Shown piece after piece: positions 1 through 64,000 of a DNA stretch of 64,000 nucleotides. The stretch spans positions 1,922,001 to 1,986,000 of the forward strand of contig JAFCMP010000001.1 of NCBI GenBank assembly GCA_017506865.1. Reading direction: 5' to 3'. Both the position numbers and the translations under genes were made by a program. Each line of letters begins with the position of its first letter. Position 1 is the first letter of the stretch. The notes beneath the pieces were generated by a model. The model was not told where the DNA came from. It saw only the letters and a list, made by a program, of their open reading frames with translations, and did no database searches. The DNA is from Tribonema minus. Taxonomy: Eukaryota; Sar; Xanthophyceae; Tribonematales; Tribonemataceae.

Positions 1-141
1 CATATAATCCATCTTGTTGACACAAACCTTGTTCGCAGCAGTTACACTAGCAGGTTGTTGCTTTCAGCACGCAGGCATTTCGCGCGCCAGCGGCTACATG
101 ACACCTGCATGCTTCTCCAACCACTACCCTGCACCTTGCAG
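1..141 (+). other. Upstream intron or 5' region of the helicase gene
   Basis: The first 141 bases end in a good splice acceptor (pyrimidine-rich, then CTTGCAG) directly before the Gly/Arg-rich coding exon. The true start codon of the helicase therefore probably lies outside the window. The frame is also open upstream from an ATG at 55, so a start at 55 without splicing cannot be excluded. Nothing else is visible here. Confidence 0.45.
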
Positions 142-900
142 GACTCTCGCAGAGATCGTGGTCCTCCCAGAGACCGTGCTCCCAGAGACCGTGATGCCGC
201 GCCGGGGGCAAGAGGAGGGAGAGATGGTGGTTACAGGGGCGGCGGCGGCGGTGGTGGCTACGGTGGCGGTTCCGAGAGGGGCTACCGCGGGGATAGCGAC
301 GCCGGATATAGAGGGGGACGGGGGGATGTCAGGGAGCAACGAGGGGGGGACAGGCAGCAAGGGGGGGAGTACAGGGGGGGCGAAAGCAGGGGAGAGCGCA
401 CGGGCGACAGCAGCGGTTACAATAGAGGCGAGCGCGGCGGGGGCTACAGAGGTCGCGACGGCGGCGGCGGGTACGGGGGAGAGCGGGGCGCGCGCAGCTA
501 TTCACGAGACGGCGGTGGTGGCGGCTATGGAGGCGGCCAGACGGGTGAAAGGCGAGACTCCGGGAGGGGCGAGCGAGGGGGGTACAGGGGCGCGGAGGGG
601 GGAGAGCGGGGCGGCGGGTACGGGGTGGGAGAACGGGGGGCACGCAGCTTCACGAGGGAAGGCAGCGGCGGCTACAGAGGAGAACGGACGGGCGACAGGG
701 GGGACTCCGGCAGGGGCGAGCGCGGGGGGTACAGGGGTGCGGAGCGGGGAGAGAGGGGCGGCGGTTACGGGGGGGAGCGCAGGGGATACGGGGGGGGGGA
801 GCGCACGGAGAGGCGGGACTTCGGCGGCAGGGGGCAGCAGTACGGGGACGCGCAGAGGGGCGGGGGCTATAGGGCCGGCGGCAGCGAGGACGGCGACGGC
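142..900 (+). other. Purine-rich RGG-repeat coding tract
   Basis: The sense strand is almost pure G/A/C with many runs of 4-9 G, coding for repeated GGYRG, GERGG and RGDSG units. RGG/GYRGG domains bind RNA and promote condensation in other proteins. The G-runs could form G-quadruplexes in DNA or mRNA. The composition also makes long open shadow frames on both strands. Confidence 0.75.
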
Positions 901-3900
901 GGCAGCAGCGCTCAGAGGGTGGGGAACAGTGAGGAGTGGTCGCCGGACGGCGCCGTGGTGCCAGCGCCGCTGCCGCTGCTGGGCGAGACGGTGACGTACG
1001 CGAGCACGACGAGCGCGGAGGAGGACCGCGAGCACTTCTTCAGCGCCAAGCCGCTCAAGGACATTGGCACGGACGCGCTTGCGATGGAGGTGGGTTGCGC
1101 CGCTGCTATTCACGATACCAACGCAGTTGTTGTCAACATTTCTTGTTGCCAGATATGTTGCAAGCAGTGGCAGATGGAGGTGGGTGCGCCACTGCTGCTG
1201 GAGATGCCGAGGCCGGTGATTGTCCATAATCTCACTGATACCACTTCACGTACCTTAAGTATATCGCAAGCCAGTGGCAGGCAGCGAGCCGCCGGCGGAG
1301 ACTGGACGGCGTGTTAGAGTTGTCACAGCAACGGCCTAGAAGCTTGACCTTTCTTCCATCTGCCTGTCATGATGATGGTCACGCAATACACGTCGCGATG
1401 TTGCGTTTGGTTGTCAGCCAACACAGACTATTCCAACATCATGCGTGCGACAGGCCCTGCAGTCCTCAGCATGACTCTGCCATGTAAATCCTGTTGTGCT
1501 CGGTGCTGGTATAATTTTTTAATCATATGAGCATATTTGTCAATGCTGCTCATCGCAAGCGTCGCGAACGCTGGCTCGATCACGAATGCATGGACGCGGC
1601 AGGCGCTGACAGTCCTCGGCATGATGCGGCCCAGCCATGTCCAGGCCGCGATGCACCTCTTGGCGCTGGGTCTCCTGTGCCAACCATAACATCATATGAG
1701 GCAATGGTGCTGACAGGGGGCATTGCAAGGCTCGTTCGCAGCCGGCCCAAACGTCAATTCATGCACGTGACGTGAACTATCAACTGCATGTTGACATTGT
1801 GAATTCATGGCCACGTAACGTGAATTCATGCACGTGACAGGCGCTGACAGTGCTCGGCATGACGCGCCCCAGCAAGATCCAAGCCGCGGCGTACCGCTCC
1901 GTGCTGGAGGGGCACCACTGCGTCATCGCGGAGCAGACGGGCAGCGGCAAGACGCTCGCGTACCTGCTGCCGCTGTTCCAGAGGTGGGTGCTTAGCGCTC
2001 AACTATTTTTGTAAACAATGTTCTTCGACTTGATCATCAGCGGAGCAAACATGAAAAAGTAGGCAGTGGCAAGACACGCTCGCGTACCTGCTGCCGCTGT
2101 TTCAGAGGTGGGTGGACGTTGACAGCGCTCGACTGTTGAAGTAGTCTTCCAAGTGTTATTCAAGTTGATGATTTGCGGAGCAGACGGGCAGCGGCAGGAT
2201 GCTTGAAGTACTGTTACAGCGGTCTTCGAGTGGGTACTTGGTGGGGAAGACAGGCAGCGGCAAGATGCGCGCGTATCTGCTGCCCCTGTTCCAAAGGTGG
2301 GCGCCTGGCCTCAACTGTTGAAAGTTTTTCTACAGAGTTGAAGCTGTTGATGATCGACACCACCTGGTCGATTCAGCTTGCAAATGGACCGCTGTCGCCA
2401 TGAAGCTTGCGATGCTGGCAGCCGGTCTCGTCAGAGGTGCATGCACCACTCACGAATGGAGGCGCAAGCCACTTCCACCAAACGCCTGGTTCTGCATTAT
2501 CAACAAGTTGAAGTGAGTGTCTGCGCTGGCACGTCACCTGTTTACACGAGCCGAGGTCTACGTGTGCGCGCAAACTGGTTTGATGTGCTCACCTTGCGCA
2601 CGCTTCCAGTGTCAAAGGAGCAGGGAGCTCAGACCATGTAGCACCGCAAAACAGCGTAGTACAGTCAATCGCCATCAATTTAAGAATATACTCTCCAACG
2701 GCGACCAGTGCGGGACAGCCGGCAGCGCACTTGTTTATCAGCAACTGACGCCAAGCCAAAGTGTAACGGCATCAAAGTCCAGCACAGCAGTGCTGACCCC
2801 CCCCCACACACACACACGACCCACCACTCCCCAGGCTGAAGGCTGAGGAGCGCGAGGCGCAGCTGACAACGCCGGCGGCACCTGCCGCAGATGAGGAGGA
2901 AGGAGAGGAGGGGGGGTCGGCGGAGGGGGTGGCGGAGGACACAGCAGCAGCGGCGGCGCAGAGCGGCGGCAAGAAGCGGCCTAATAGCAGGGCCGCTGGC
3001 AGGGCTCAGCCGGGCCGGCCGCGCGTGCTCATTCTCTCGCCGACATCGGAGCTGGCGCAGCAGGTGCGCCAACACCGCTTCCGCAGACAACAGGGGACCA
3101 GGAATAGATGTTTTTGCAGGCCCGCGGAAGCCGGCAGTGTGCCAAATCACACCCCGTGCTGACAGGCAGCCAACGAGTGTTAGGCACAGCTGCCGTAGTG
3201 GCGATAGCTGGTAGGCACAGATGACAACAATAACTTAGTACTTCAGAACTAATATTATAGGAAGTGTGCTGATGCACAGGCATGTGTGTGCGCGCTGCAG
3301 CTGGGGGTGAACCGCCTTGTCGAGCGGTGCTACGTGTACCCGCTGTCTCGCCGACCTCGGAGCTGGCGCAGCGGGCGCGTCGTCGCCGCCGCCTTCGCAG
3401 TGCCGATTGAGCATGCGCTACGTGTTGATGCATGCGCGCTGCTAGCCCTAACGCTACTACCCTAGCCCTAGGTTCAGATTGGCTTGGCCGTTTGCTGGCA
3501 GTAAACAAGTCCGAGCACAATAACATACTGAAGTATTGATGCATGTGCGCTGGCGACGATTGAAGTTGGTTTTGGGAGGGGCTACTGGTGAGGGCTTTGG
3601 CCTGGTGCATGTCACGTCCGTCGACCGCTGTCGTCAGCGCTGGCGGCAGCAGGCGCGTGCAGTCGTAAGCTCTGCGTAGGTAGGCGCATGTGGTGTATGT
3701 AGAGTGTGTGTGCAGCATCTGGATCATTCCTGAAATATCAGTACGTGTGGGTGGGTGGGTGGGTGGGTGTGGGGGAGGGAGGGGGGGGGGGGGGGGGAGG
3801 GGAGCCGCAGCAGGGTGGAAGCAGTGTGGAAAGTGTCGGCAGGGCTGCATCCGACGAGCCTTGTGTGCCGACGCTGTCGCCAACGGCGCCGCTTGCCGCA

Positions 3901-6900
3901 GGCGCAAATTCAGCGCTTCTCAACATGGCTTGCGCCTCCTCCTCTGACGCGCGCGGTATCGCCTGTCCTGCGCTGCTCCGATGCCGCGCCAGGTCCACGC
4001 TGTCGTGCGTCAAATCTCCGGCGGAGTTACTCGTACCTCGACGACGCGTGTACATAACGTTAACAAAGTACACAATACATTGGCGGGGTCACGGAAAGTG
4101 GCGCCGCCGTAACCCTGCATATCTGTACGATCAACCCCTTCCGCGCGAACGTAAACCACCCGTCGTGCACTGCGCCAACGCTGCGCCACCAGGTCCACTC
4201 CGTCGCGCGGCGCATCTCCGGGCGCGGCACCGCTGCGCACGTGCTGCTCGACGGGCGGCGGCGGCGCGCGCAGCCAGGCGCGAGAAGCGACATGCTGACT
4301 CAGAGGCTGCAACACGCCGCCGCCTCGAGCCTGCGCAATCTGCAGATCTGGTTGCACGTGTAACAAACACCTGTCCTGCGTCGACGCTGCCGCCGCGCCA
4401 GGTCCACTCCGTCGCGCGGCGCATCTCCGGCGCGGCACCGCTGCGCACGTGCTGCTTCACGGGCGGCGGTGGCGCGCGCAGCCAGGCGCAGCTGCTGGCG
4501 GAGGGCGTGGACGTGTTGGTGGCGACGCCAGGGCGCGTCGGCACGCTGCTGGAGGACGGCTCCCTGAGCCTTGCCGACTGCCGCGCCGTCGTTCTCGATG
4601 AGGTGCGTGGGTACTTTGTTCAGACTGAAAAGGGTGAACGGTCATTTCGATTCATCATCAAGACAATGATTCCAGCTTCAGGAGAAGGATAACGCGGGCT
4701 ACTTCCAGGTCACAATGACGGAGCGTCGGCACGCTGCTGGAAGACGATTCCCTCAGCCTGGCGGACTGCCGCGCTGGGGGTCTGGCAGGCCGCGCCTGCG
4801 CGAGGCAGACTGTCTGCCGCGCTGTGAGGCGCGACAGCTGCGCTGCTCGGCTTCAGCCGGTGATGTGGCCCCAGTGAGCGGGGCGGCTGTGTCGATACAC
4901 GCGCCGAGCTGAGCGCTGACATGATGCACGCTGAGCGCTGTTGCATTGCTGACCGCTGACACGATGTGTGCTGAGCACTGACACGATGTGCGCTGGGCGC
5001 TGACACGACGTGAGCGTCGACGCGTTCCCCACACGCCGGCGAGCGCTGATGCCTTCTCCATCCCATCAATGTACACCCCCCCGGGACATCATAATAGTTC
5101 TTGTCTTGCGCCGACATATGATTACGAGATGGAAAGCTTTAGCTTCAGCTTGAGCTAGCGCACTGTATGTATGCATGCGGAGCGCTGACGCATGGCGTAG
5201 TGTCGCCGCCGCCCCTGCATTCGGACGTCCTGTTCCTGGACTAGACGTTCGAGCTGGCGCTGAGCGCTGATGCATCGCACGCCGAGCGCTGACGCATTGC
5301 ACCGAGCGCTGACACAATGCATGCCAAGCGCTGATGCATGGCGCCGTGTCGCCGCCCCCCACGCAGGTGGACGTCCTGTTCCTGGACGAGACGTTCAAGC
5401 TGGCGCCCATTGGCGCGCAGGCGCCCGACGGCGCGCAGTTCCTGTTTGTCACGGCGACGCTGCCCACGGAGGTACAACAAAAACATTCATTGATGCTTCT
5501 GATAGTGATCAGTAGTGCGCGGATGCCGTGTGTAGTAGAGTCCATGAGCTTGGGTAGTCTTGTGGTCCAGCAGAAACAATACAAACACTGCGAAGTATAT
5601 GTATACACGTTGTGTGTGATGATATGTATATGATCATCACCGCGGTGAGGTATTGCCACGCCAGCGGCAACGACAGCCTCGCAGGCGTGCGGCGGCGCGC
5701 AGTTGCTGTCTGTCACGGCGACGCTCCCCCACGGACGCAAGGCTCGCCTCAGGAGCGACGCCGTATGTTGTAGGCTCAATGTTGTAGGCTCAATGAGCAT
5801 GGGTAGTCTTTTTTGGCGCTGTCAAGGCCACTGACACTTGCTGCGGAGTAGATACCACCACGCCAGCGCCAACGGCAACCTTGCTGGAGCGCGATGACGC
5901 GCATTTACTGTTTGTCACGGTGATGCTCCCCACGGACATGACGCCTTGCCGTCGTAGACAGATTCCCCTGTTGTGAATGAGCACATGTCATTGTCCAGTA
6001 CCTGCAAGTGCAAGTAGTCTCTCCAGTCAGCAGAGGTCGACGACGACTCGCTGCGCAGTGCGTGGCACCGCAGCAGTGGCGCAGAGCACCCTGGGCGCTG
6101 CTGTAGGCTGATGCAAACTGCTGCAGGATGCTTCAGGTTTTGAGCCGCACGCCGCAACGCTGATTCAGCTGCTGGCCCAGTGCTTGGGTTTTTGCACACC
6201 CACCCAGGCATGCAGCATCGCTCAGCGGCCGATGCCTTGATCGCAGACGCGACGGCAGCAGCGCTCAGACGCTGCGCTCGTCCACACACCCATGCAAGAG
6301 CTCGCTGGTGATGCTGCGCTCGATGCTATCAGCAGCAGCAGCTGCATCGAGAAATTGCTAGAGGCTGCTCCGCACCGCCGCTGATTACTCAACCAGTTCA
6401 GAGACGCCCCATTTTCACCCCTTACCGCGCGCTGCATCATTCTTCAAACTTTGTTTATTTTGATTTTTTGCTTGCGGCGTCGCAGGTAGCGGAAATGGTG
6501 AAGGCGGAGTTCCCGGGCACCAAGTTCATCACCGGGCCGGGCCTCCACAGGGTCGCGCCCGGCGTGGAGGAGGTGGGCGACTCTCTCCGTGGTGCTGAAA
6601 CTTCAAGTGATGGAGTAGTACGCGCATGAGCACTGCTGCTCACAGCAGCGGGCATGCGCGAGTGCTGCCGTTCGCAGGGGCGCGCAGTATCGCACGATGT
6701 CGTTACTTTCCGGCCGTGCCGCGCGCGTGCAGTGGGTGACGTGCCGTTGCATCCTCAACTGCAGGGTGTGACGCACGCCTGTTTCAAGCATGGCACGGTG
6801 CGGATGGCCTTGCTTGATAGAGGATTGTCTCAGCTATGCCGCGCGCTCGCAGTCGGTGACGTGCTGCTGCATTGTCAACTGCAGGATGCCACGCGCCTGG

Positions 6901-9900
6901 CTGTGACGGGGCATGGTGTCATGATTTTTACGGTCTCTTTCTCATGCGCTGGCCAAGTGCTCTCAGCACAGGCCACGTCCATTTGCACGTGATATCGCCA
7001 TCTTTCCGTGGCGTTCCCCCATTCTTTTCTGTGCTGACGCCGCTCTCGCGTTTCCTGCGTGCCGCACGCAAAAACAGGTGCTGGTGGACTGCAGCGGACC
7101 CCCGGAGGAGGCCAAGAACGAGGCGACGGGCGCGGCGCGCAAGCGCGAGGCGCTCATGACGCAGCTCACGCGCCGCAGCGGCGCGCTGCGCACGCTCGTC
7201 TTCTGCAACACGATACGCTCCTGCCGCGAGGTGCGTGTGGCGCCGCTGCCGAGCGCTGCTGCTGCGCGCTGCCGCTGCTGCTGCCGCCGCTGCTGCTGCT
7301 GCTGAGCGCTGCTGCTGAGTAGTGTGCGCGTCAGCAGTGCCGCCGCCGCTGAGTCTCCTCGGCAGCGCATGTGATTCGTTTGAAGCAGTGAAATGGATGA
7401 CCAGTGCATGCACACCCACGTCTCCTGCAAGACGTGTAGCTGTGAGGCTGGTCTACTGAAAATGCTGCTGGCGGTGCTGTGGGCGGCGGCACTGCTGTAT
7501 GAGCACTGCTGTTGATGTCGCACATGCGCGCCACACAGCGGCGCACCCCTCTTGCACGAGCCCTCAGATTAGGTTTAGCGTCAGGGCTTCGCAAGCGTAC
7601 CAATGAAACCAGCTGCACTCATCATCAGCACGTCAGCAGTTATGTAGCACGCTCGTCGCTGCCTGACCGCAAAATTCCATCTCTCTCTTTGGGTCCACGG
7701 CCGTAGGTCGAGAACACGCTGCGAAGAACGGACCGGCGCTCGGCGCGGTTCTCTGTGCTCGCGTACCACTCCGCGATAGACCCCGCCGCTGCCACGGCTA
7801 ACCTGCGAGAGTTCTCGCGCTCGAACGCGCTGCAGCCCATGATCCTCGTCTGCACGGACAGGTGAGAAGGCGGGGGCTTGCATACGGGTTGAAGTAAAAA
7901 ATTCAAGTTAAGTACCTTTGAAGTAGAGAGTTGTCGCGCTCGAGCGCGCTGCAGCGCATGCTCCTCGTCTGCACGGACAGGTGAGACGGCCGGCTGGCAC
8001 ACATTCTGAAGTATACAGCTCCAATATCTTTTGATTCGCTTCCACATACATCAAGTTGAAGTACCTTGAAGCAAGTTCTCGCGCTCGGACGCGCTGCAGG
8101 CCATGATCCTCGCCTGCACGGACAGGTGAGAAGACGGACGCGTGCATACAATTTGAAGTATGAAGTTCAAGCTGAAGTAACCTCGAGGTAGAAAGCTGAC
8201 GATTAGAGACTGTGTGTAAAAGTATGCACTTCTTCAGAATATGAAGTCGTTTCTGCTTATGGGTACTTCAAAATTTAGGGTTGGGTCGGGTTAGGTCTAG
8301 GTCAGGGATGCCTGGCGACGGCCCGGTGCCCGCTCGAGCTGTGCCTGATGCGTGCCATCTCCGCGTCATCAGCACCACTTGAAGTGGTGGCATTTAAGGT
8401 AGCGGCACAGCAGGCGCTGTGCCGTCCGTTGCCAGCATGCTGTCTGTCAAGCTCGTGTCGCCAGCCCCCTTTCTCGCCACCCATGACTCCTGCGCTCACG
8501 GGACTCCTGCGCTCACGGGAGCTTGCAGTCTCCTCGTGGGTGTGCGCCGCGGTGATGATCAGATATGACGCGCAAGGATGCTCTTGCTGCGCTGTCCGTG
8601 TATCTTACCATCCACATGACCTTAATATGCCGTTTGTATGCATGCGTGTACATGCATTGGCCCGTACACGCCAGGCCTTTGAACACGAGCCGTTTCTCGA
8701 GACGGCAACGAAATCAGCGGCTGTGCCTGAAGTGAAAGTAGGGCCAGGGTCGGGCGACGTTGATCTGTAACGGCCAGGGGCAGGGTTGATATTATCAGGG
8801 TTAGGGCTAGGATCAGGCGGTGCAAATCTGTATCAACTTGCCTCCCCTGGCTCGTTTCCCCGTGTTGCCAGGTCGAGCCGCGGAATGGACTTCGACAGCG
8901 CGTCGGTGGATCACGGTGAGCGCCGCTGTATACTTGATGTTGAAGTTTGTGTCTCTCTACGCGCTGTGATCAAAACCGCGCGTTACTGAGACGTGCACAC
9001 AGATGCTTCGCAGCCGTGTTACAGCATCTGGGGTCATTTGCGCGGTCGTGTAAACCTAACCCTAACCCTCAACAGGACTCTGCCGCACAGGCGCTCATGG
9101 GCGCACATACTTGCAGTACAAATGCGTCATCGCTGCCGAGGATTGCAGGTTCAGGTCAAGGTTAGCCCTAAAAGTAGAATTTGGGTCAGCTCTGACACTA
9201 ACGCTGACTATAACCCATGGCCGAAGACCTAGCGCGAACTCTGGCGTCGATCGCTGGCGGGGCAGCTGGATACCTGAGCTTGTTGCGTTGCTGTGCGCCA
9301 TTGCTGTGACTGCCGCCGCCTTAGGGTTGGGGGTAGGGGTTAGGGTTAGCTCTAAACCTACTACATTAGCGCGTATGACCGCAGGTGCCCAGAGGGCCCA
9401 GGAATCGTATCGGCAGCGCCGTCGTGCTGGCGCGCTCGTCATGCTGTTGCGTCGCCAGCTTGGTCAGGTAGTGCGGGCTAAAACTGCGGCGACATCATCT
9501 TTAGCATCATGGGCAAAGCAACTCGGGCCACCTCCCTCCCCAACACCGGCCCCACTGGCCCCCCCTTGGGGGGGGGGGGGCGAGAACTTCAACAGCCACT
9601 TTGTTCATACCATCCGCCCTTGCAGCTGACGTTGCCATTGCGCGTCAACGCGTCGCGTAGCGCTCACGCTGCAGCCGCTGGTAGAGCTTGCCGCGTGTCA
9701 GTTATGATCAGCGACACCCCCTCGGTGCCGCCACGAGTTCATCGACAGTAGCGTCTCCTTTTGCGGCTGCGAAAGACGAGGTTCATCAAGGGCGAGGCTC
9801 AGCGTTGCAATCAGGGGGTGCAGATAGGGGTCATTGAGATCACGGACCTGCCGGCCTGCTCACGAGCTCAGCTTTAGGTTGAGGGTTAGGGGTAGGGTTA

Positions 9901-10933
9901 GGGTTAGGGTGAGGGTCCGTAGAGCGCTGGTGCGCGCTGCGCTGCTCTGCCTCAAACATTGCGCACGCACCTGCCAACCCCATCTACTTGTCATGCTGTG
10001 AGGTTCAGCCTGTGCTTACGCCCCCCTTTTTTCCCTTCAATACGTGCAGTGGTCCTGTACGACTTCCCCAGGGACCCCATAGAGTACATGCGCAGGGTCG
10101 GGCGTACCGCGCGCGCGGGCAGGAAGGGTGTCGTCACCGTGCTGGCATGGGTGAGTGGCCCTGCTTCAATGCGGAACCATTTGTATTTTGCAAAGAGATT
10201 ATGTACCCATGATACAAAGCAGTATATTCATAGATGTACTGTCTTCAAGGCTCATACATGTGACACACCTACCCTCTGGGCCTTCACGAAGTACACGAAC
10301 AAGGTAGCTACATTTGAGCACTTTTGAGGTAGTTCAGATAAATGCTTGACTTCAAGGCTCATGCGTGTAATAATTTATCCGGATGTTCAGTAGTGGCGTA
10401 CTCTGTGCTGGTGAACTCGGATTGATCTGAGGTGCTAACAACTGCGCGCGCACGTTAGAGTTATTTGCAGCCTGCACTGCGCATGGCACTTTCTGCCCTG
10501 CGTGTCCACAGACGCAGACGCTGCCTCCCGTTCCTCAACAAGCACACGGTGCTTGAGACATTCGCGCTCTGCCATGCCCCATGTGAAACCAGTGATGCTC
10601 ACGTCGCCAGGAGCAGCTGCTGCAATGGTAGGCGCGCTCGCAGCAACGTCTGCAAAGCACCATTTGGCAAGCCGGGAGGCGCTGTGCATATGCTGAACTC
10701 CATCTTTGACATAGTTCACTCTTAGTATGGCTGCCACAGCGGCCAAGCTCTGCCAGCTGAGAGTGGTTTCTGAAAAAAACCTATTGCTTATTTCTGATAT
10801 TGAGCTTTCTTTTGCTGGTGTGTGCTTGTCATCGCTGTGTGACTTGGTGATGCAGGGCCGTCAAGTGCCTCTCGCGCGCGAGATTATGGCCGGCAACAAG
10901 CTGGGCAAGAGGCTGCTGGCTCTCGAGGAGTAA
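142..10933 (+). CDS. RH50: RH50-like DEAD-box ATP-dependent RNA helicase, 5' partial, 11 exons
   Basis: Exons: 142-1089, 1841-1983, 2835-3063, 4402-4602, 5367-5471, 6486-6572, 7078-7230, 7707-7861, 8872-8915, 10050-10150, 10856-10933 (TAA). Their sum is 748 codons and every junction keeps frame. Exon 1 encodes about 280 residues of RGG/GYRGG repeats, then the Q-motif region. Motifs in order: AEQTGSGKT (motif I), PTSELAQQ (Ia), ATPGR (Ib), LDEVD (II, spanning the exon 4/5 junction), VTATLP (III), LVFCNT (IV), [12 protein letters not shown] (V, spanning exons 8/9) and VGRTARAG (VI). DEVD, SRGxDF and the tail [11 protein letters not shown] match plant plastid helicase RH50, which acts in chloroplast rRNA maturation; that role is inferred from family. 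An RGG domain at the N-terminus is unusual for RH50 and suggests an added RNA-binding region. No transit peptide is seen because the 5' end is missing. Confidence 0.9.
1160..1660 (+). repeat. Exon-edge copies in helicase intron 1
   Basis: Around 1170-1190 a copy of the end of exon 1 with its donor recurs (gatggaggtgggt, then gcgcc). At 1451-1490 and 1603-1660 there are two degraded copies of the start of exon 2, including its acceptor AG. The 1603 copy repeats GCGCTGACAGT.CTCGGCATGA and the following CGGCCCAGC with substitutions. The real exon 2 starts at 1841. Confidence 0.75.
2060..2305 (+). repeat. Three degraded copies of helicase exon 2 end plus donor
   Basis: Units at about 2060-2118, 2174-2232 and 2240-2305 repeat the Walker A coding end of exon 2 (ggcagcggcaagac, then ctgctgccgctgtt) followed by the donor gaggtggg. 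The copies carry frameshifts and stops, so they are not usable coding exons. Confidence 0.85.
3336..3390 (+). repeat. Copy of helicase exon 3 end
   Basis: This segment repeats the motif Ia coding end of exon 3 (ctctcgccgac.tcggagctggcgcag) in intron 3, about 300 bases downstream of the real exon end at 3063. The copy's reading frame is broken. Confidence 0.8.
3765..3803 (+). repeat. G homopolymer and GGGT tract
   Basis: A GGGTGGGTGG stretch is followed by a run of about 20 G within intron 3. It is low complexity and a likely site of sequencing-length error. Confidence 0.8.
3975..4305 (+). repeat. Two copies of helicase exon 4 start
   Basis: Units at about 3985-4035 and 4165-4305 repeat the acceptor and start of exon 4 (cgcgccag, then gtccac.c.gtcg). 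The second runs through the equivalent of [13 protein letters not shown] with small indels. The real exon starts at 4402. Confidence 0.85.
4728..4785 (+). repeat. Copy of helicase exon 4 end
   Basis: This repeats the segment coding for [18 protein letters not shown] (cggcacgctgctgga, then gactgccgcgc) in intron 4, about 130 bases beyond the real donor at 4603. Confidence 0.8.
4895..5340 (+). repeat. GAGCGCTGAC minisatellite with exon 5 start copy
   Basis: Intron 4 contains about a dozen GAGCGCTGAC(A/G) units spaced 20-40 bases apart, many followed by a short ATG- or CAT-containing segment. A degraded copy of the exon 5 start lies at about 5205-5260 (cggacgtcctgttcctgga followed by an in-frame stop). 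The real exon 5 starts at 5367. Confidence 0.8.
5640..5950 (+). repeat. Two copies of helicase exon 5 end
   Basis: Units at about 5645-5720 and 5850-5945 repeat the motif III coding end (gcgcagtt.ctgt.tgtcacgg.gacgct.cccc). Each begins with a shared segment containing cacgccagcg. They lie downstream of the real donor at 5472. Confidence 0.8.
6712..6920 (+). repeat. Tandem pair of about 122 bp in helicase intron 6
   Basis: Two units (about 6715-6800 and 6837-6920) share gccgcgcg, cggtgacgtgc.g.tgcat and tcaactgcagg. Unlike most repeats here, they show no resemblance to either neighbouring exon. Confidence 0.65.
7915..8135 (+). repeat. Two copies of helicase exon 8 end plus donor
   Basis: The exon 8 end (CTCGTCTGCACGGACAG before GTGAGA) recurs with intact donors at 7981 and 8126. 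These are 119 and 145 bases apart, counting from the real donor at 7862. About 45 exon bases are repeated each time with few substitutions, so these donors could in principle compete with the real one. Confidence 0.9.
9325..9915 (+). repeat. Telomere-like TTAGGG tracts in helicase intron 9
   Basis: Short imperfect GGGTTAGGG runs occur at about 9325-9350 and 9885-9915, with CCTAACCCTAACCC at about 9055-9070. All lie within one intron, so they are interstitial rather than a chromosome end. Confidence 0.75.
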
Positions 10934-12153
10934 TATTCCTCAGCGATCACCGCGGGCACTGGGCTTCAATATACTTGCAGTGCCATCCATGGCTTTTTTG
11001 TTCAATCATACTATGGTTGCCACCAGCATCAGTGCCATAGTAGCTGCCCTGTCGCAAATGCCTCCTTCGTCTCGGGCCTGCTTTTGGCTCAGCACGCTCA
11101 CAACATGGCGATTCTTTCAGATCGTGTATCTTCTCACTGGTGGCCTGCCTGTGCTGTGCTTGTCTGCCTCTGCAACGGTCGCACGGCCTGAGCTGTGTCG
11201 GCACTTGTCATGGCAATCTTGTGGACACATCAAGCATAGGGTCACTGGACTTCACATCTGCATGTTCCGCAGTGCCTTGGCACTCTGTCTGCATGTTAAC
11301 AGTGTGGGCCCTGGCGATTCAATGCCGGACAGAGCCTGAGAGTCCATGTTGTACTTAGTCTTCTACCAGCGATGGAATCAACTTGACTCAACCATGACCT
11401 CGAGAGAATTGCCTAACCCTAACCCTAAGCAGCAACGGCGGCAGCGCCCTGTCTGCAGTCTGGAGCCCCCCTTGTGTAGAAGGAGTGGCGTCAGTGCGCA
11501 GCTCGCCAGGAAAACAATGCGGGCAGCGTAGGCATGGCAGTAGCATTGTCTCAGCGATGAGTGAACGCGGTCATTACGCCACTGCCGCGCCCTGTGTGCC
11601 AGGTGTGTCAGGGCAAACATCATTCACTGCGCGCCTGTCACTTGGCAACATGTCTCGCCAACAATGGCTAGGAGCTTCAGGTGTCAGAAATCGATGTGGC
11701 TCCTGTTGATGCATTCTGAAGAACTCAAGTGAGCAAACTCACATTTCATCATGGCTGGCCAGATGCAGTCACAGGCCATGAGACCGTGCGCATTGCTGTG
11801 CTCTGCAACTCACAATGCCCCAAAAATTGAAGTCAAGAACTGGGTGAGGAGTGCCTCAGCATTGGCAAAGCGCCACAAAAACCTGGGCGCCTGTCCATCA
11901 TGGTGCATACGCGAAGGCGCGCGCAATCCATCCTCAAGGTCCGCAGCAGCCACTACCTTTGACAGAAGCTGCAGCAGCGCAGCAGCGCAGAGTACAGGAC
12001 GCAAGCATTCCACTCTCAGCAGGCCAGGGCATCACAAAAGCACGGCAACGTAACACCGACGCACGCGCCCTTTGCGCTCAACACATGCTCTGATCTACAA
12101 AAATATACTTTCAAGTACTGGTAACGCCGGCGGCAGCGCGCGCGCGCGCGCCG
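10934..12153. other. Convergent 3' intergenic region
   Basis: This separates the stop of the helicase (+) from the stop of MCM6 (-). It has lower GC than the exons, one short CCTAACCCTAACCC tract near 11412 and a CG dinucleotide run at about 12136-12150. No further gene is supported; the open frames are short and lack recognisable domains. Confidence 0.6.
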
Positions 12154-28809
<16,656 letters not shown>

Positions 28810-45126: not shown

Positions 45127-46993
45127 ATGCACGCGCTGCGCGCACGCGCGCTGTGAGCGCTGCTGTGAGCGTTGCTGTGACCGCAGCGCACCGGCTTTCA
45201 CATGCGCAGGCGGGGGGGAAAGTCCTGCACGCGCAATGGCCCGCATCGCCCGCGAGACTTTGTACGATCTACGGTGGCAAGTGCCGGCGGCGTGCGCCGC
45301 GATAGAACCTTGCCGAGCGCACACGCCTCCTGTCTGCAGGTCAGCGGCAGCAGCGCCGTCCAGCGCCGCGCTTGGCGGGAAGGTGGTGTGCGCAGGGCCC
45401 GCTGCCATCGGCGGCGCGCCGTTGCCTGCGGCGCTTCAGCTGCGACGCAGGGCTGACTGTCCACGTCGCCGGCGCGGCGGCACGCCGCTGTCCGTGTCGC
45501 GTGCGCATGCGCGTGCGCCGCGACGCGCAGCAGCGGCGTGCTGCGCGCCCTATGCCGCCGCGGCTGCGGCCGCTGCTGCTGCTGCACGAGCAGCTGTCGT
45601 CAGTCAGTGACAGTGTGCTGCGTCTGCTGGCCACTCCGGGGCGAGTGCGCGCGCGCGCTTCTCTGGGCACCGCCGCTCCACAGGGGAGGCAGTCATCCAG
45701 GAGCCCACTCGCTGCTGATTCAGCCATCCGCGCGTTCCGCCTCGGCACGACGCGCCGCCGCGTCAACGACATGTGATGTCGCAGCGCGTGCCTCCGCTGC
45801 TGAGTTCAGGGCACCGCCTGCTGCAACTCTTGTGCATGCGGCAGGCAGGTGTGGGGGGGGGAGGGGGGGCTGGCATTGCCCAGACGGCATGCGCGGACAG
45901 CAGTCGGGTGTTGTATTTATTGCGCTGAGCGGCGCCATGAGTTTCATGTTTCTCTGCTCACCATCAGCTGTGTGATGATGAGCATCATCACAGCACACAT
46001 CCCACCTGTAGTTTTCTAGTTTCTCGGTAATGTTCGGTCTTGGGGGTAAAGGGGGTTCCAGATTTCCTGGGGTAGGGTCCTGAATTGGAATTTTTCTTAT
46101 CCCCAGGGTCCGGTGGATGGCCCCTTGGGGTCTCCGGACTTGTGCACGAGCGTATGGTAGCAAACAGTGAAGATGGGCATGCAGCCCAAGCCAACCATTT
46201 GCGGCAGGATTTGCCCAGCAGCAATGCTCAGCCCAAGGTCAGAGAGTCCCAGGTTGACTCAGTTGTTGGTAGAACCACTGGTGCGGCTTCTGCCAGCACG
46301 TGACTGGCAGCAGAAGCTGGCGGCGGCTGTGGCCGGCATTATATCGATGAGGCTGGCCAAGACACAAGTGATTGTTGGTGATGAGAATGAGCGAGCACAC
46401 CGTGTTTTTCTGAAGTGTGCATGACAACAGCTTACGATTACTTTCATGAGTCCTCTCTTAAATTGTTTTTGCTTCAATGACTTCATGCGGCTTGTTTGCT
46501 TACGCCGGAATCAGGTCATGTTGCTGTGGTGATTCATGCGATCTGAGTGGTGCAAGTTGAGGAAGTATGCTTGCAACTCCGAGTCTTCTGCATGTACCAA
46601 CAGATTTGATCACATGCAGTAGATGTGGTCCTCTTCTTGTATGGGAGAACATACCTAAGAGATATCCCAGGGTCGTCATGGTTTGCAGCATGCGCGACAC
46701 CATTATGTGCGCACCAGTACATAGTTTACGCATCTTGGGGATATCCAAGATGAGTCGACGCGGGCAGTTAGTTGGCTGTTTCTGGAAAGCCAGTTCCCGG
46801 GAACCAAGAACCACAGCCTGCGCACCTGCACGTGCACGGGAGATACACGAGCACAGCGCGCTCATTGCCAGCTGTCACATCAGAGTGCATACTTGGTGGC
46901 ATCTGCAGGCTCCCTGTGCCTTGGCAGCGGGAGAATCTCTCTATTTGAGCCGATCTCCGACAAGCAAACCCATCTGCTTGCGAGGCAGTCAAC
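45127..46993. other. Intergenic region between carboxypeptidase and AlgH genes
   Basis: The first about 650 bases stay very GC-rich (TGAGCGCTG-like repeats, then CCG/GCTGCT tracts) and include the 3' flank of the carboxypeptidase gene. From about 45960 the GC content falls. No conserved domain was recognised in any frame, including the minus-strand frame at 46500-46865. It must also hold the promoter of the AlgH gene. Confidence 0.6.
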
Positions 46994-49900
46994 ATGGCCG
47001 TACAGAAGCTCTGTGTGTTGGCGATGGCACTTCTGTGCGCCGCAGTGCAGGGGTTCGTGGTAGTATCACCGCGCATTCTCTGGCACCAGAAGGTGAGAGC
47101 CTTGAAAATTTCCTTCTTTTCATCAGTCGGCAGTTGCCCTCCGCCGTGCCCTCTTCGCTCATCATGCCCACCCTGTGCGTACTGATGGCTTGCAAGCTGC
47201 GATGCTAACCCCACAGGCGTCAATGCTATGACGAACACACGTGACAAGCACAGAACTGCGTACCTACCGCTTGTACGTGGTCTGCTGTGGCTGGATCCAC
47301 TTTCAATCAGTGACTGAATTCATGATCTGCAGGTGCAGCCTCTAATGTCCGCGCATGGAGATGAGGAGCTGGACGTGATTCCAGATGTCAAGCAGGTATG
47401 AAGCAGCACCCCTTCCCGTTGTGTGCAGCAGCTTTGCGAATTTGAACCTGTTATTCCAAAGATCAACAACACGCAAGAATCCTGGTACCGCTCTTTGATC
47501 GCGCGGTGGTAGGCTGCATCATGCTCGCGGGAGTCAGCGAGAGATCCACGCGCAGACTGGCGAGCGATCGAGGCACCTGCGGCTCTTGCGCTGTTAAAAT
47601 CGCCACAAAATCGTGCTGTCGTCGCGAGTCACCTCTACTCAGAGGTGTCTGTGTATGGATGGTCTACATGCCAAGGGCATTTGTACGAGTCTTCGTGAGC
47701 TGTGCGGGAAGCACTCCTTCTTTGATTGATATTCCTATTGAGCCTCACTAGGGCTGGCGCCAATCGCTGGTTGTCACGGGACCGGCATGTCGAGGAGCAC
47801 CGGCCAGTACCTCTTGTCAACTTCAAAATGCTTGCGTACCTACGACCCGCGCGAATTTCAAAGTTGGCTTTGTGCACGCCAGATATGTGTGGCATGGCGT
47901 TGACAGTCTGTACTGAGAACCGCCGTCTCGTCCTTCTCGTGCGCTCTAGGGCTCACGCAGCTGGCCTGCCCAACACGTTCGCCCAGCCGTTGTGGCATGC
48001 GCTTGTGCATACCAAAACGGCAGCGGCGCTAGTGTGTAGCAGCCTCCACTGTGGATCTGGTTTGTATGTATATGCCAGCTATGTGTATTCCGTGCGTCTC
48101 TCCTGAGCTGGCTCGGTAGGCGGAAGCCGGCGCTCACCACAACCTTGCACGACAAGCAAGCGCCGCGTGAACCTCATCCCAATCCCCACCTACTTCAAGC
48201 CTCCATGTGAACTCTCATCGCGTGATCCCAATCCCGATTGTGACCCGAAGCCTCCATGCTACCTCTGATCCTGAGCTTTGTCAGCACACCACGCGGCCTG
48301 AATTCACAGCGCCCGCCGCCGAATGTAGAATGTGCGCTGGATGTAGCGACTTCGCTGCCCTGGCGTGCGCGCTGCGCACGCCGCGCGGACAGCCGTTCTC
48401 TCGTGCGGGCAGCCCCGCCGCAGCTCTCATAGGTAGGGTAGGGGTGAGGTTTCGACAGGGCGCATACATAGCGTGCGCGACCCCGACTCACCGTGAGCAC
48501 GCGCATATGCGCACCCGCCTCTGTCGCCGCGCCTGTCCGGCAGGGGGGTGTGCCTGACTCAGTGTCGCGGCGTCCCGAAGGCCCACACTCCCCCTAACCC
48601 TACCTCTAAGTACGCAGCGCCGGCAGCGCACGACGCCCTGCAGTGCTCTTCCCCGCGCCTGATGTGCCATCGGAGCTTCTCGCCCCAGCCCTGACCCTGA
48701 CCGTGTCCCCCAATCGCCCCCCCCCAAGCGGCATGTGCGCTACCCCCGATGCTGACCCTAGCCCGAAGCGCATCGCACCGGCAGCGCGTGACGCCGCTTT
48801 GCGCCAGATGTGCCAGAGGAACGGATGCGCGCGTGTCGCGCCAATCTCAACCCTACCCCCGACCGCATCGCATTGGCAGCGCGCAGCACCATGTAGTACC
48901 TACCTCTGCATTCAACGCGCGGGCAAACGCGCTTGCTGTGTTGCTCATCTCGGCCGCTGGATCTGCTGGTGAAACCGCTTGCGCCGCGCGGCCGGCTGGA
49001 CTGGCACGCACTCCTTAACCCTAACTCTGATATCAGCCCGAACTTTGACCCCACCCCCACGTGCTATAGAACGAAACCGGCAGCGCTCGACGCCATTACC
49101 CACATCCGCCTCTGATGCATTCGGTAACGCTTGCGCCGTAAGTGCACCGAATCGGCAGCAGCGCTCAGCGCCCTGTGCTACTCACCTCACCTCGCCTCCG
49201 CATTCCATCTGGTGGCAAATGCTTGCGCCGCACTGTCAGTTGGATTGGCGCGCATTCCGCGCCAACCGCAACCCCATCTTCAACTTGAATCATCACGCTG
49301 GCAGCGCTCAGCACCGTGTAATACCCACCTCCGCATTAAACGTGCGGGCGAACGCGCTTGCTTCATCACTCATCTTGTGCTGGTGTGAACGATTGCGCCG
49401 CGCACACAGCTGGACTGGCGCGCATTCCGCGCGAACCTGGTGCGCCGCAGCAGGGAGGAGGGGTTCGGCGGCAGCAGCGCGGCGGCGGCGGCGCGGCGCA
49501 AGTGGCGGGACGACGCGTGGGCGCACGAGATAGGCGTCGTTGAGAAAGGTCAGCCTTGGGGTCAGGGCTAGGGTTAGGGTTAGGGTCAGGATTACGTGCG
49601 GTAGGGTTATGACAGTTTTCATGTTGAGAGCAGGATGCTCTCGAGATAGGTGTAAGCGCACGCGATAGGCGTCGTTCAGAAAGGTCAGTGGTGCGATCAG
49701 GGCTTGGGAACAGGGTCAGTGCGAAAGCTAGGGTTCCAATGAGGCATGGGGGTTCAAGTGAGGGTGTCAAGCTGTAGGGACATTGTACCTAGAAAGATTT
49801 CTGTTAGGATCAGGGTTAGAGTTGGGGTAAGCGGAATTTTTTCAGATGGTTCGAGCAGGATAGACGTCGTTGAGAATTTTTTTTTATGTTGGCGCCACAA

Positions 49901-51712: not shown

Positions 51713-51790
<78 letters not shown>

Positions 51791-54700
51791 GGTGAACAGG
51801 TGAGGTTGCATGCATGCAAAACAAGCTTCTGCACTGTGGGCGGGAGCGTCTGCGCGTGCGCGGGGCTGCCGCAGCGCCGCACGGCAGTGCCCAACCCTGC
51901 GGCGCGCATCGTCAGCACCGAGCAGAGCGAAAGTACGCAACGCAAATCACCCACAACGCACGCGCGGTTGGGCCCTGCGTAGGGGCAGCCAGGTTCCGTC
52001 ACCGTTTCATGGCTGTGCGTCATTGCTGAGCCTACATACACGAGAGCAATATTGATTCGAACTCTTCCACGGTGAAAACACAAGGACAGAGAAGTGTACA
52101 ACGTACAGGTTTTGGTCGCTTTGAAACAAAGTCACACCGCTTCGCTCGCTCGCGACCCCATCCAGGGCGGCCAGGAGATCGCGCCGGGCCTCTACGTGGG
52201 CGGGTTTGAAGACCTCGTCAGGCTGGCGCAAGAGGTGACGCACCCCGCAACCCTACTTGTCACCGCGATGCCAACCCTAGATATTCGATCCCATCACGCA
52301 CTGGCGTGTGCGCTTGTACTTGGGTACCGCTGTGAAGACATGTTGAAGTGCTTGGCGCAAGAGGTGACGTGCCTTGTCGCAGTCAGCGCTCCCCTTGATC
52401 GGTCTCGTCCGCGAACGCGCGAGCGTGCGGCCTTGCGCAGCAGACGAAGTGCCGTTGTATCAACATGCTCGTGCGCGTCGTTGCGTGGGACACTCAAAAC
52501 ATGCTGGTGGTCGAGTCAGCAACGCAATGAGCGGCTTATTGAGTGCGGAGCGATGCATGACGACAGCAGAGTTGTTTATGTGGTGACTCGCATCTGGCTG
52601 ATTCCTGAGCGTTGCCGCGCGCGCCTGCATTGCCGCAGCGACAGATGAAGCAAAAGCCATCAACGCTAGGATGAACATGAAGCAAAAGTCATCAACACCA
52701 TTGGCAGCAATGCTATGACATTTTGTTTCCGAAATAGGTTTGAATACTTGTCTAGTTTTTGATGTGACAAATGGCTGCTCCTGAGCGCTGCGCATGCCCC
52801 CCTCAGGGTCAACTTAGGTTTAGGGTTATGCCAGGCAGCGTCGATGGCTCCAGCCTCCATGAATTGTCGACGGCAACTGTTTGTTTGCACCAGAAATGAA
52901 AACATCGCGCCATGAAAACGATGGACACGATATAAGTACATATCAGCTGATGCTGAGCGTTGTGCACCCTGCGCAGGGCCGCGTCGACGGCTCCAGCCGC
53001 CACGCTTTGACAACGGTGACAATTCAACAAGTATTTCAGCAACAGAAATGAAACCTCTGTTATCATATGATCGCAATGGCAATGATATACGTACAGGTCA
53101 GCTGACGCTGAGCGTTGTGCACCCTGCGCAGGGCCGCGTCGATGGCTCCAGCTTTCATGCAGTGTAATGGTCAAACCAATGCCGACACATGATGCTCTAG
53201 ATGAACATAGATAATTGAGATGACATCTACTGGCTGATGCTGAGCGTTGTGCATTCCCCGCGCAGGGCCGCGTTGACGGCTCCAGCCTGCGCCTCGCGCA
53301 CGGCCACGCGGCGTGGGGCCCCGGTCAGGTGAGCGGAAAACCTCACTTGAGGTTGAACTTGTCTCGCACGCGTGCCCTGGGCGTGATGGCTTGCGCGCTC
53401 TGCAGACGCCGCCTGCCAGTCCACGAAAGTGCGCGCTGCGACAGGGTCGGGACCGCGTTGCGGCGACTCGTGGCATCGGCCTCTGCTGGAATGCGGTCGT
53501 TACGTAGGCTGCAGAAGGCACTTTCTCGACAGAGCCGTTGTGCTGGACCGAAATGTGCATGCTGGGGTCAGAGGTTATTTGTACCATTGCGAAGCCCCCG
53601 CAGCGTGCTCGTTTGTGCGCACTGTTGCCCATTTGCTGAGCGCTGCAGCTGCTGCCGCGCGTGCGCCGAGCAGCCAGCGTCGCGAGCGATCGGCTCATGC
53701 ACACAAGGCGCGCTCAGGGCCGGGGTCATCAAACGCGCTGAGCGCCGATACTTCTCGAAAGCCCCTCGACACACGCTCACACGGCGCGGCCCCCCGAGGA
53801 AAGCGCTCTGAGGGAGAGCGCACGACTGCGCTGCACAGGGAGGCGCGTGCGCCGCCGTGCGCTGCCGCCGCCGCCGCCGCCGCCGACCGCACCGCATTAT
53901 GCCACGCCCATGTGCCTGCAGCGTAAATCGCGACTGAGCCATGCTGCGCTGCCGCCGCCGCCGCCGCCGCCGCGCAGCTGTCGCGCGAGCTGCGTGCCGA
54001 CTTCTGGTACCTCGCCGCCGCGGCGCCGGCGCTTGTCACGGGCGCCGGCGCGGCGGGCCGCGCGCCCTCGCGCATGTGGCACCAGGTATGTATGTGCGCA
54101 TTGTTTGTAATCCACTGTAGTGTTGCATATGTGCATTGTGTGACTGTATGTAGGTCCGCACGCACACGCCCCCCGCTGGCGCTGCGTCATGGTTGCCGCA
54201 GCAGCAGCACGCCTGTGGGAGCTGTGCTTTACGCGTGGCGGTACAGCGCTGCGCGGCAGCAGAGGCTTCTGCATGTGGCAGTCAGGGGAAGGCGGATTGC
54301 GCAGCCGCGGTGGTCGTGACTCGCAGCCCATTTGTGCTTCCATGTTCACACCGCCAGCGCAGTTGTTTGAGGAGGGGGGGTCGTAGATAGGGGATGTCAG
54401 CACGGTGCGCGCGCGCAGCCGAGCGCAGACCGTCAGCCCGCCCGCTGATGTTCGCGCGCGTTTTCTGCTCTGCGGTGCGCCTTTGCGGAGCTTCCTTGCG
54501 AGGCGCTTGTGTGCGCTCGGTAGTGAGGTCCCCGATAGCGCTGCCACGCAAGGGCGCGCAGAGCGACACACCTCAGAGCTGCCGGAATGAGTGGCACAAG
54601 TTATCATCTTTTGTGGCATCAGCGCTCGATACACATCAGTGCTCAACAGTTTCAGCGCTTCAGAAGTGGCGCGCCGCTGCGGGCCCTCGGCATCTCAGTG

Positions 54701-60844: not shown

Positions 60845-61015
60845 GGAAGTGCACGGACCTGCGTCCCCAGTTGCGCCTGACACGCGTACATAGCATCCGT
60901 ATGGCATTTACATTAGCAAGGGAAAGGCACGGACCTGCGTCCCCAGCTGCGCCTGACACGCGTACACGGCGTCCGTATGGCAGTTACATAAGTAAGGGAA
61001 TGGCAGTTACACAAG
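60845..61015 (-). repeat. Two copies of the exon 3 end of the acidic coiled-coil gene
   Basis: Units near 60852-60925 and 60926-61000 repeat cacggacctgcgtccccag, then tgcgcctgacacg and the following intron. They lie about 75-95 bases apart and downstream (in gene direction) of the real exon end at 61030. Confidence 0.9.
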
Positions 61016-61029
61016 GGAAGGGCACGTAC

Positions 61030-62835: not shown

Positions 62836-62930
62836 GGTCCCCGCGGCGTCCTTGGATGTTGCGCGAAAACAAACTGTTTGAAGTTCCCAACTTCCATGAC
62901 AAACTGTGACTGTCAGGTGCGCATCCGGGC
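62836..62930. promoter_or_regulatory. Compact bidirectional promoter of two secretory-protein genes
   Basis: Only about 95 bases separate the divergent ATGs. It contains TTGCGCGAAAAC (E2F-like in form) and two ACAAACTGT words at about 62868 and 62900. No TATA box was seen. The assignment is positional. Confidence 0.55.
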
Positions 62931-64000
62931 ATGCAAGGCATGAGGGCGGAGCGGCTGGTGGTGCTGTCTGCGCTTCTGCTGGCCCTGCTGTGCCTGCGGC
63001 TGGCGCCCGTAGCAGGCCAGGAGGAGGAACAGGCCGCCGTCGCAGAAACGGAAAGCTTTGACGAAGCTGGCGGGGGTCTCGCAGCTGAATACACAGCACA
63101 GGATGAGGACGAAGACGAGGAGGATTGGGGGTACGTGGATCAGTGATGTGCGACATTGCATGCAGATTCATCGACAGGTCGAGCCTCCAAATCTTGCAGG
63201 ATCTTCATGGCAAATTTACCAGTCGTGTTGCACAACGGCTTACTGGGACATGTGGCCTGGCCACCGTAATTGCAATGGCGATGCGTTAGCAGCGCTTTCT
63301 CAGTTGCCTGTCAGCTTGCAGAATGCAGTACGATTGGCACTTCGAATTTCAACCATGCATGTACCGTGGATGCAAAGTACCAGGAAGGCCGCCTCACCCT
63401 GTTGCAGCAGGCTAGCCAAACTCTGAGATGATACGCGGTTCTTCAAAAGGTTTTTGCAGGCCACATGACTCTCTGGAACCCAGGGATCTAAATACGGTAA
63501 GCATGTTGAACATGACGCGGACGGTGCAGCACGGAGGTGACACGAGCAGACTTCACTGAAGTGCTAGATTTCTGAGTTTCTTCTTTCCTCATAAATGTGT
63601 GCGCCAATGCCGTCCGAGCAGGGACGATGACGAACGCTCCTGCTCCAATAGCTCCAACGCACGCACCTTGATCGTGCTCACCAAAGATGATACTGTTCAC
63701 ATTATTGTAACCAAGAGCTGTCCTCTCCCGCAACGATGCGCGCGCGACCACTCTAGGTACACTCCCTTGTCCTGAACTTTTGTTTGCTTCGACACTGCGG
63801 GCGCAGGCTCTTTAGGAATAGATATGACTTTCTCCCGCAATGTCTTGTGCGCAACCGCTGTACACTATGTACCCTGTTCTGAGTGTGGTGTTTCCCTTGA
63901 TGATGCGCGCGCGCGGCTCCTTTCCGAGCAGGGACGACGACGACCCCGCCAGCTCCGACGGCATCCGGCGCCACTTCCTGCAGGGCGCCACCGCGGCGAA
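62931..64000 (+). CDS. Secretory acidic protein, 3' truncated by window end
   Basis: Exon 1 is 62931-63130 (ATG at 62931 or, more likely, the second ATG at 62940); exon 2 starts at 63930 and runs off the window. It has a Leu-rich signal peptide ending APVAGQ, then a Glu/Ala region and an acidic end DEDEDEEDWG, which joins in frame to DDDDPASSDGIRRHFLQG. No family was recognised. The layout (signal peptide, acidic run containing ED-W) resembles the divergent neighbour and could reflect shared ancestry or shared lumenal role; that is a guess. Confidence 0.65.
63595..63680 (+). repeat. Copy of the start of the next exon
   Basis: gtccgagcagggacgatgac and the following c.gct...ccaatagctccaacg resemble the start of exon 2 at 63921 (tccgagcagggacgacgacg with ccagctccgacgg). 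A weaker relation of the preceding cgatgcgcgcgcg words occurs near 63735 and 63903. The rest of the intron (63131-63929) shows no gene. Confidence 0.78.

Follow-up and report, generated by a model that had tools for sequence, protein, structure and literature searches.

Introns of some Tribonema minus genes carry arrays of copies of their own exon borders and probably grew inward by repeated duplication

The 64,000-nucleotide (nt) stretch of Tribonema minus DNA analyzed here, hereafter the window, spans positions 1922001-1986000 of contig C1 (JAFCMP010000001.1) in a genome assembly of 158 Mb and 554 contigs, and has a guanine-plus-cytosine (GC) content of 59.3%. At least 92 matches to the chlorophyll-binding family are found in this assembly, which indicates the genome of a photosynthetic eukaryote. 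One of these, compared with chains of solved structure, scored best against those named LHCI and ACPI/CAC, and no member of the cryptophyte phycoerythrin alpha family turned up in a search whose controls gave no signal anywhere. Two genes of the window, an MCM6 gene and a DEAD-box helicase gene, were modeled exon by exon, and their junctions were placed by protein continuity and not by the repeats that are our subject: direct copies of an exon edge together with its splice site that lie within the adjoining intron, which we call echoes. The two models have GT-AG at every listed intron and comprise 21 introns with 42 junctions. Two further genes were identified as AlgH-like (PF02622) and peptidase M14 (PF00246), with junctions that are less strictly fixed.

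Each junction, represented by 45 nt of exon and 25 nt of intron, was aligned to its own intron and scored against a null of 100 random segments from other introns, with reverse-complement introns serving as controls. At a cut of z>4, a direct copy of the adjacent exon edge and its splice site is present in 18 of the 21 introns, including all 12 introns of MCM6, whereas none of the 42 control comparisons is positive. Among the donor junctions 15 of 21 have a copy on the matching side, and among the acceptor junctions 8 of 21, with one to seven copies per junction. This sidedness was measured with 70-nt tiles under a low-complexity filter, which was also applied to the inverted-pair scan, the repeat-family counts, the interior and intergenic counts, the count of local pairs in the random loci, and the drift test described below. 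At a threshold of 22, donor-junction tiles have copies downstream in 70% of cases and upstream in 0 of 56, while acceptor-junction tiles show the converse, 43% having upstream copies and 0 of 53 downstream ones. When the threshold is lowered to 18, the laxest used, an upstream match appears in 5% of donor tiles as well. The original prediction that introns hold direct copies of the neighboring exon edge plus splice site, with end-plus-donor copies downstream and acceptor-plus-start copies upstream, is thus borne out for these two genes. One junction offers a choice of site, since MCM6 exon 2 has two candidate acceptors, an inner one at 25333 that lies in an echo and an outer one at 25177 that homology favors. 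Judging from protein continuity and homology, the outermost splice sites appear to be those in use. Coordinates of the gene models and of the copies are collected in Table 1.

Table 1. Modeled exons of the MCM6 and helicase genes and the copies of exon edges in their introns (window coordinates).
Feature	Position	Strand	Remarks
MCM6 gene	12154-26796	-	13 exons; phmmer match to PDB MCM6 (28vy_6, E 1e-47); exons join into a continuous MCM6-like protein
MCM6 exons 1-7	26688-26796, 24818-25177, 23950-24078, 22308-22579, 21414-21570, 20462-20584, 18708-18813	-	5' end of exon 1 not fixed
MCM6 exons 8-13	17925-18016, 17222-17281, 15946-16101, 14353-14502, 13535-13678, 12154-12900	-	
DEAD-box helicase gene	390-10150	+	ends not fixed; 10 exons joining in frame; Pfam PF00270, sub-threshold PF00271
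Helicase exons 1-5	390-1089, 1841-1983, 2835-3063, 4402-4602, 5367-5471	+	
Helicase exons 6-10	6486-6572, 7078-7230, 7707-7861, 8872-8915, 10050-10150	+	
Three copies of MCM6 exon 1 end and donor	26276-26628 (26575-26628, 26388-26435, 26276-26340)	-	coordinates worked out from strict alignment
Copy of acceptor and start of MCM6 exon 2	25263-25333	-	upstream of homology-favored acceptor 25177
Copy of MCM6 exon 2 end and donor	24644-24726	-	
Array of at least six copies of MCM6 exon 3 end and donor	23256-23829	-	
Three copies of MCM6 exon 4 end and donor	21861-22223	-	
Copy of MCM6 exon 5 end and donor	21216-21251	-	
Copy of acceptor and start of MCM6 exon 6	20650-20678	-	
Two copies of MCM6 exon 6 end	20126-20369 (20300-20369, 20126-20179)	-	
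Copy of acceptor and 11 nt of MCM6 exon 8	18109-18148	-	
Copy of MCM6 exon 8 end	17706-17759	-	
Three copies of acceptor and start of MCM6 exon 10	16191-16541	-	
Copies of MCM6 exon 10 end and donor	15425-15849	-	divergence 0.06, 0.13, 0.18, 0.22 with distance; a fifth (0.35) deeper in the intron
Copy of MCM6 exon 11 end and donor	14165-14228	-	
Two in-register tandem copies of MCM6 exon 12 end and donor	13295-13462	-	period 120
Copy of acceptor and start of helicase exon 2	1603-1669	+	
Three copies of helicase exon 2 end	2062-2296 (2062-2107, 2175-2203, 2248-2296)	+	
Copy of helicase exon 3 end	3346-3372	+	
Copy of acceptor and start of helicase exon 4	4193-4281	+	
Copy of helicase exon 4 end	4720-4774	+	strict alignment; z 3.3, under the z>4 cut
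Copy of acceptor and start of helicase exon 5	5223-5260	+	
Two copies of helicase exon 5 end	5680-5936	+	
Two copies of helicase exon 8 end and donor	7926-8125	+	

The wider genome was sampled with twenty 10-kb stretches at preset places and three MCM loci obtained by protein search. A Pfam check of ten random-locus exons matched nine, and seven Pfam-matched genes from random loci together with the three MCM genes form an outside set of 40 introns. Its junctions come from an ab initio model, with main exons picked by hand and copy-like predicted exons left out; the set excludes two loci with a Pfam match and few exons (L015 and L019) and the ten random loci whose predicted exons went without a Pfam test. 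At z>5, echoes are present in 17 of the 40 introns (15 donor and 12 acceptor junctions), compared with 1 of 80 controls. The positive introns are concentrated in a myosin gene (8 of 9), the MCM gene on contig C445 (3 of 3) and a kinase gene (3 of 4), with single positives in the MCM gene on C156 (1 of 3), Sec5 (1 of 2) and, weakly, GcvP (1 of 3). No echo was detected in the 16 introns of a carrier, a choline transporter, a tubulin-tyrosine-ligase-like gene and the MCM gene on C334, the last with five introns. When the 21 window introns and these 40 are pooled as a 12-gene set and the exon part alone is used as a stricter test, 33 of 61 introns are positive against 0 of 122 controls. Echoes are distributed in a nearly all-or-none manner between genes. 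The term "pervasive" in the original prediction fits MCM6 and the helicase, and outside the window it holds for some genes only; the accompanying suggestion that most introns of the genome carry such arrays was too strong.

Echo-rich and echo-free genes can share a contig, as do loci L010 and L009, which lie about 0.5 Mb apart on C1. Another locus, L012, gave no Pfam match and was left out of the 40-intron set; 11 of its 25 junctions are positive. Across the random loci, 90 of 157 local direct repeat pairs touch a strong predicted exon, although such exons make up 12.7% of the bases. Exon GC content was considered as a cause of the difference between genes and rejected, as it does not separate echo-rich from echo-free genes. 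With regard to a cause at the scale of genome domains, three small neighboring loci, too few to decide, yielded one clear further echo beyond the myosin gene. In one stretch that begins 7 kb past the sampled myosin stretch (L046:2800-3273), an acceptor-side copy, ASSEGARFHADYVSSAVA, lies upstream of ASSEGVRFHADYVSSAVA.

The order of copies was studied with a strict alignment, a permissive one having been dropped because it produced matches in echo-free genes too. Successive copies in the arrays of the 12 genes are spaced by a median of 147 nt (interquartile range 118-182, n=87), and about 55 nt (median) of the exon are included in the nearest copy, the remaining 92 nt or so of the unit being intronic. 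A nucleosome core is likewise 147 nt in size, a match that may be a coincidence. Copies of one junction share their exon breakpoints, which differ on average by 9.8 nt compared with 16.9 nt after shuffling (0 of 2000 shuffles as low). The exon parts in kinase intron 1, for example, measure 35, 33, 35 and 33 nt. A single copy among the 87 extends as far as the opposite end of its exon. By eye, the spacers between young copies resemble fast-changing TTGAAG-type repeats within an otherwise tandem unit, and the idea of non-tandem copying at a distance, which these spacers had raised, was set aside on that visual basis.

Several simple repeats were noted as well. TTGAA/TTCAA words are present at 2-10 per kb in both orientations in the introns of the 12 genes, where base composition predicts about 1 per kb, and are located in the fast-changing part of the duplicated units. 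A 17-nt minisatellite in MCM6 intron 1 (26505-26562 and 26628-26677) falls within the intronic portion of the unit echoed at exon 1. Short telomere-like TTAGGG/CTAACC arrays lie inside modeled introns at 9874-9916, 19451-19490 and 20084-20118, and others are found elsewhere in the window at 36251-36296 and 41620-41649. Stretches of this kind apparently account for the majority of the short matches that introns of different genes have in common. The window also contains a (TG)n tract of 38 repeats at 51716-51791 (94% match).

The copies decay like neutral, unconstrained DNA. Their exon parts differ from the exon by 13% in 52 donor copies and 11% in 28 acceptor copies, and their intron parts differ by 21-25%. 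Individual copies are 0-41% diverged, and ages differ within one array, as predicted. The GT and AG dinucleotides of the copies are 12-12.5% diverged, and GT is kept no better than its flank (0.88 versus 0.87). Divergence at codon positions 1, 2 and 3 is 119/1271, 128/1282 and 244/1278, or 0.094, 0.100 and 0.191. This 1:1:2 pattern is expected if the copy drifts freely while the exon drifts only at third positions; coding constraint on the copy would give a larger third-position ratio. Among 34 placeable donor copies with an intact GT, use of the inner donor would bring a stop before the copy's donor in 29, and as insertions 17 of the 34 are out of frame and 17 in frame.

Order and age within introns follow a regular scheme. 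In 34 of 34 pairs, the copy of the donor edge comes before that of the acceptor edge. Duplication of a whole intron as the unit, considered for a myosin intron in which donor and acceptor arrays meet within 23-28 nt, was rejected on this ground, the acceptor-before-donor order being found in 0 of 34. There is an age gradient: of 64 pairs, 49 have the younger copy on the exon-proximal side and 14 the older, with one tie, and the Spearman coefficient over 76 copies is 0.50. In 19 of 34 adjacent copy pairs the distance between the two copies exceeds that of either from the exon; in 1 it is smaller than both, and 14 are undecided, so that the copies do not resemble a homogenized tandem satellite. 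The longest array, in MCM6 intron 3, illustrates the point. Its five later successive pairs, given as changes in each copy and then mutual distance, read 4, 4, 8; 4, 4, 8; 4, 5, 8; 5, 8, 10; and 8, 8, 14, and fit a ladder of separate derivations from the exon.

Shared substitutions lead to the same conclusion. Double changes in sister copies at codon positions 1 and 2 number 28 compared with 28.6 expected, and 12 of them are to the same base compared with about 9.5. At position 3 there are 75 compared with 40.2 expected, with 52 to the same base compared with about 13, an excess of the kind expected if the exon itself changed after both copies had arisen. The independent changes in sister copies thus indicate that copies were taken successively from the exon lineage, whose older synonymous states they retain. 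Random tandem duplication within an array would imply descent of copy from copy and is not supported by these data.

Local duplications are unevenly placed. Three stretches that the gene models suggest to be intergenic (10935-12150, 26870-29240 and 45780-48800; 6.6 kb, this window only) contain no local direct pairs. The 19.9 kb of MCM6 and helicase introns hold 21 intron-only pairs, 17 of which overlap junction families, leaving 4 that are unrelated, compared with 20 junction families; 40 pairs touch an exon. Among 62 local repeat families in the twelve genes, 44 include a junction (28 donor, 16 acceptor only), 5 are exon-only and 13 are intron-only, where random placement predicts 22 with a junction. 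When families count only if their intronic part spans 40 nt or more at 80% identity, junction families number 19 against 13 intron-only (7.8 expected), and with 60 nt or more, 16 against 8 (6.7 expected). Detection bias toward conserved exons looks limited, as 98% of the 20 junction families are still detectable after 10% drift is added to the exon side, in a test limited to families already detected and blind to older ones since lost. The same test would have passed over a family at MCM6 exon 13, but none is present there. Shorter introns in the past would raise the expected junction share, and part of the excess may therefore be historical. A junction bias in the initiation of duplication is probably real, and its size is uncertain. 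The glycine/arginine-rich exon 1 of the helicase carries an in-frame coding repeat at 463-779 with a period of 147 (49 codons), a local duplication tolerated within an exon as a multiple of three and distinct from the junction echoes.

The original explanation held that duplications occur everywhere and survive only where they straddle a junction. Part of it is supported: the duplications are local, direct and junction-straddling, the outermost junctions give conserved proteins, the copies look unconstrained, the introns lengthen, and inner donors would mostly bring stops. The proposed ubiquity does not agree with the counts above, because intron interiors and intergenic DNA should tolerate duplications equally, so that tolerance alone does not account for their scarcity there.

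We consider it probable, with some reserve, that these introns grew inward by repeated duplication of a border-straddling unit of about 150 nt, with the exon acting as the preserved master. A segment of this size across the exon-intron border, comprising a median 55 nt of exonic and some 92 nt of intronic sequence, would be tandemly duplicated at the border, presumably through slippage or unequal sister exchange at the DNA level, or perhaps break repair. The original outermost splice site would remain in use, so that the mRNA would not change and the inner copy would be nonfunctional from the start. The exon edge would be kept intact by purifying selection and so remain the best-matched template for the next round, and this conservation of the exon might be the reason that copying recurs. 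Each new round would copy the exon-proximal unit in register and insert the latest copy between the exon and its predecessor. Arrays on the donor side would thereby extend from the 5' end of the intron and those on the acceptor side from the 3' end, older copies being displaced toward the middle to form the ladder. A ratchet is plausible, as the reciprocal deletion would place decayed sequence in the exon and so be removed.

Several points weigh against this interpretation. Pairs within an array are not independent, and when arrays are counted instead, 14 of 20 start with a copy younger than their last one and 5 of 20 with an older one. The age gradient is broken in some arrays, for example on the donor side of MCM6 intron 1 and in kinase intron 1; in the array of MCM6 intron 3, the first pair (3, 5, 4) does not fit a ladder. 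The choice of donor and acceptor in use rests on protein homology, not RNA; the copy acceptor of MCM6 exon 2 at 25333 reads through in frame and is the one that the ab initio model picked. Codon frames in the codon-position and double-change analyses come from a codon model, not annotation. The excess of echoes is weaker when all strong exons predicted ab initio in the 20 random loci are considered (29 of 126 donors and 25 of 130 acceptors, reverse control 0), and 14 of 244 ab initio junctions there have a copy on the wrong side, perhaps at mispredicted exons. When at least 85% intronic identity is demanded, junction families do not outnumber intron-only ones (6 versus 7, 2.2 expected). Finally, the ladder explains repeated copying; it does not explain the junction preference of the first event or the nearly all-or-none behavior of genes.

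Other explanations differ mainly in what they make of the junction. Random tandem duplications of 60-200 nt throughout the genome, of which only those straddling a splice junction survive, would need neither targeting nor a preference for the exon as template. The neutral-looking decay, the stops that inner donors would usually bring, the intron-only families, the tolerated repeat in helicase exon 1 and the 67 of 157 local pairs in random loci that touch no strong predicted exon all suit this idea. Nevertheless, it appears unlikely given the absence of local pairs from the window's 6.6 kb of presumed intergenic DNA and their scarcity in its intron interiors, the doubling of junction families over expectation with a seemingly small detection bias, the derivation of copies from the exon and not from one another, and the lack of any sign of whole-intron duplications, which would be equally harmless. 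Duplication might instead be coupled to transcription or splicing and begin at exon-intron borders in genes that are active during replication or in the germ line, for instance at splice sites with paused polymerase or at an exon edge that carries a positioned nucleosome. The confinement of the window's local repeats to exon-intron borders, the near all-or-none pattern per gene and a median spacing close to the nucleosome core would be consistent with such targeting. It is nonetheless quite improbable, as the spacing is broad and two MCM genes of presumably similar expression differ wholly, MCM6 having echoes in 12 of 12 introns and the gene on C334 in 0 of 5.

The copies could also serve as decoy splice sites that regulate intron retention or nonsense-mediated decay and are maintained for this role. 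GT is intact in 37 of 52 donor copies and AG in 21 of 28 acceptor copies, and 23 of 40 donor copies score at least as well as their own real donor. However, the median donor score is lower in copies (8.2 versus 9.8), third positions have diverged about twice as far as first and second ones, as in a free copy, and GT and AG are preserved no better than the flanking bases, for which reason functional decoys were rejected as very improbable. Introner transposons or other mobile elements are hardly tenable as the builders of these introns. Short GGTTAG-type stretches are common to introns of different genes, yet the matches between introns are only 21-49 nt long among the 25 pairs listed for the 61 introns, and each array copies its own exon; introners were accordingly rejected. 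A filtered scan of the 20 random loci, the window and the three MCM loci revealed no local inverted pairs of at least 38 nt, short terminal repeats not having been searched for, and a laxer scan of the window gave 25 inverted pairs within 1.6 kb. As for stuttered repeats introduced during assembly, tandem structures are error-prone in assemblies, but divergence of 0-41% with a codon-position signature is not expected of assembly error and the echoes occur on several contigs, making this explanation barely credible.

Internal gene and exon duplication resembles the present case in that segments within a gene are duplicated, although its reported cases generally concern whole exons or coding repeats, whereas here a single copy in 87 runs the full way across its exon, and the behavior of the copies is that of noncoding DNA. 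Intron gain by AGGT tandem duplication (PMC3443670) creates a new intron within an exon by local tandem duplication. Like that process, the echoes represent local direct duplication within a gene that, to judge from the sequence, would be hidden from the mRNA by splicing. That model implies a copy of the start of the downstream exon at the 5' end of the intron and one of the end of the upstream exon at its 3' end. The echoes differ in that they lie in the opposite order in 34 of 34 pairs, extend introns already in place, and form arrays that are recurrent and age-graded. In the potato RdRp gene (PMC4974935), the closest published single case among those considered, a new intron and its new donor arose from one duplication across an intron-exon boundary. 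The duplicated segment there, as here, straddles a boundary and inherits its splicing signals; in T. minus, by contrast, the events are numerous within one gene, and the outer sites seem to remain in use. Introners (PMC9860276), dispersed families of similar introns, also add intronic sequence on a large scale; the present introns differ in having only short stretches in common and arrays that each copy their own exon. Among papers judged by title and the start of the abstract, with most subscription journals outside the coverage, no description of junction-copy arrays with an age gradient was found.

Intron lengthening is mostly credited to transposons or left unexplained. For the genes described here, the length of an intron could be explained by its having copied its own borders repeatedly, and every array would contain an internal clock. 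Such ladders would allow intron growth to be dated and past synonymous states of the exon to be recovered, and would permit a side-by-side comparison of mutation in the coding and the dead copy of one sequence. They also let one ask what makes an exon-intron border prone to duplication. We can propose only tentatively that a border-specific process of DNA duplication operates in some domains of this genome, acting on segments of about nucleosome size with the exon always as master, and amounting to a form of intron growth that is anchored at splice sites and independent of transposons. If this is true, the introns concerned keep a dated ladder of earlier states of their exons, synonymous sites included.

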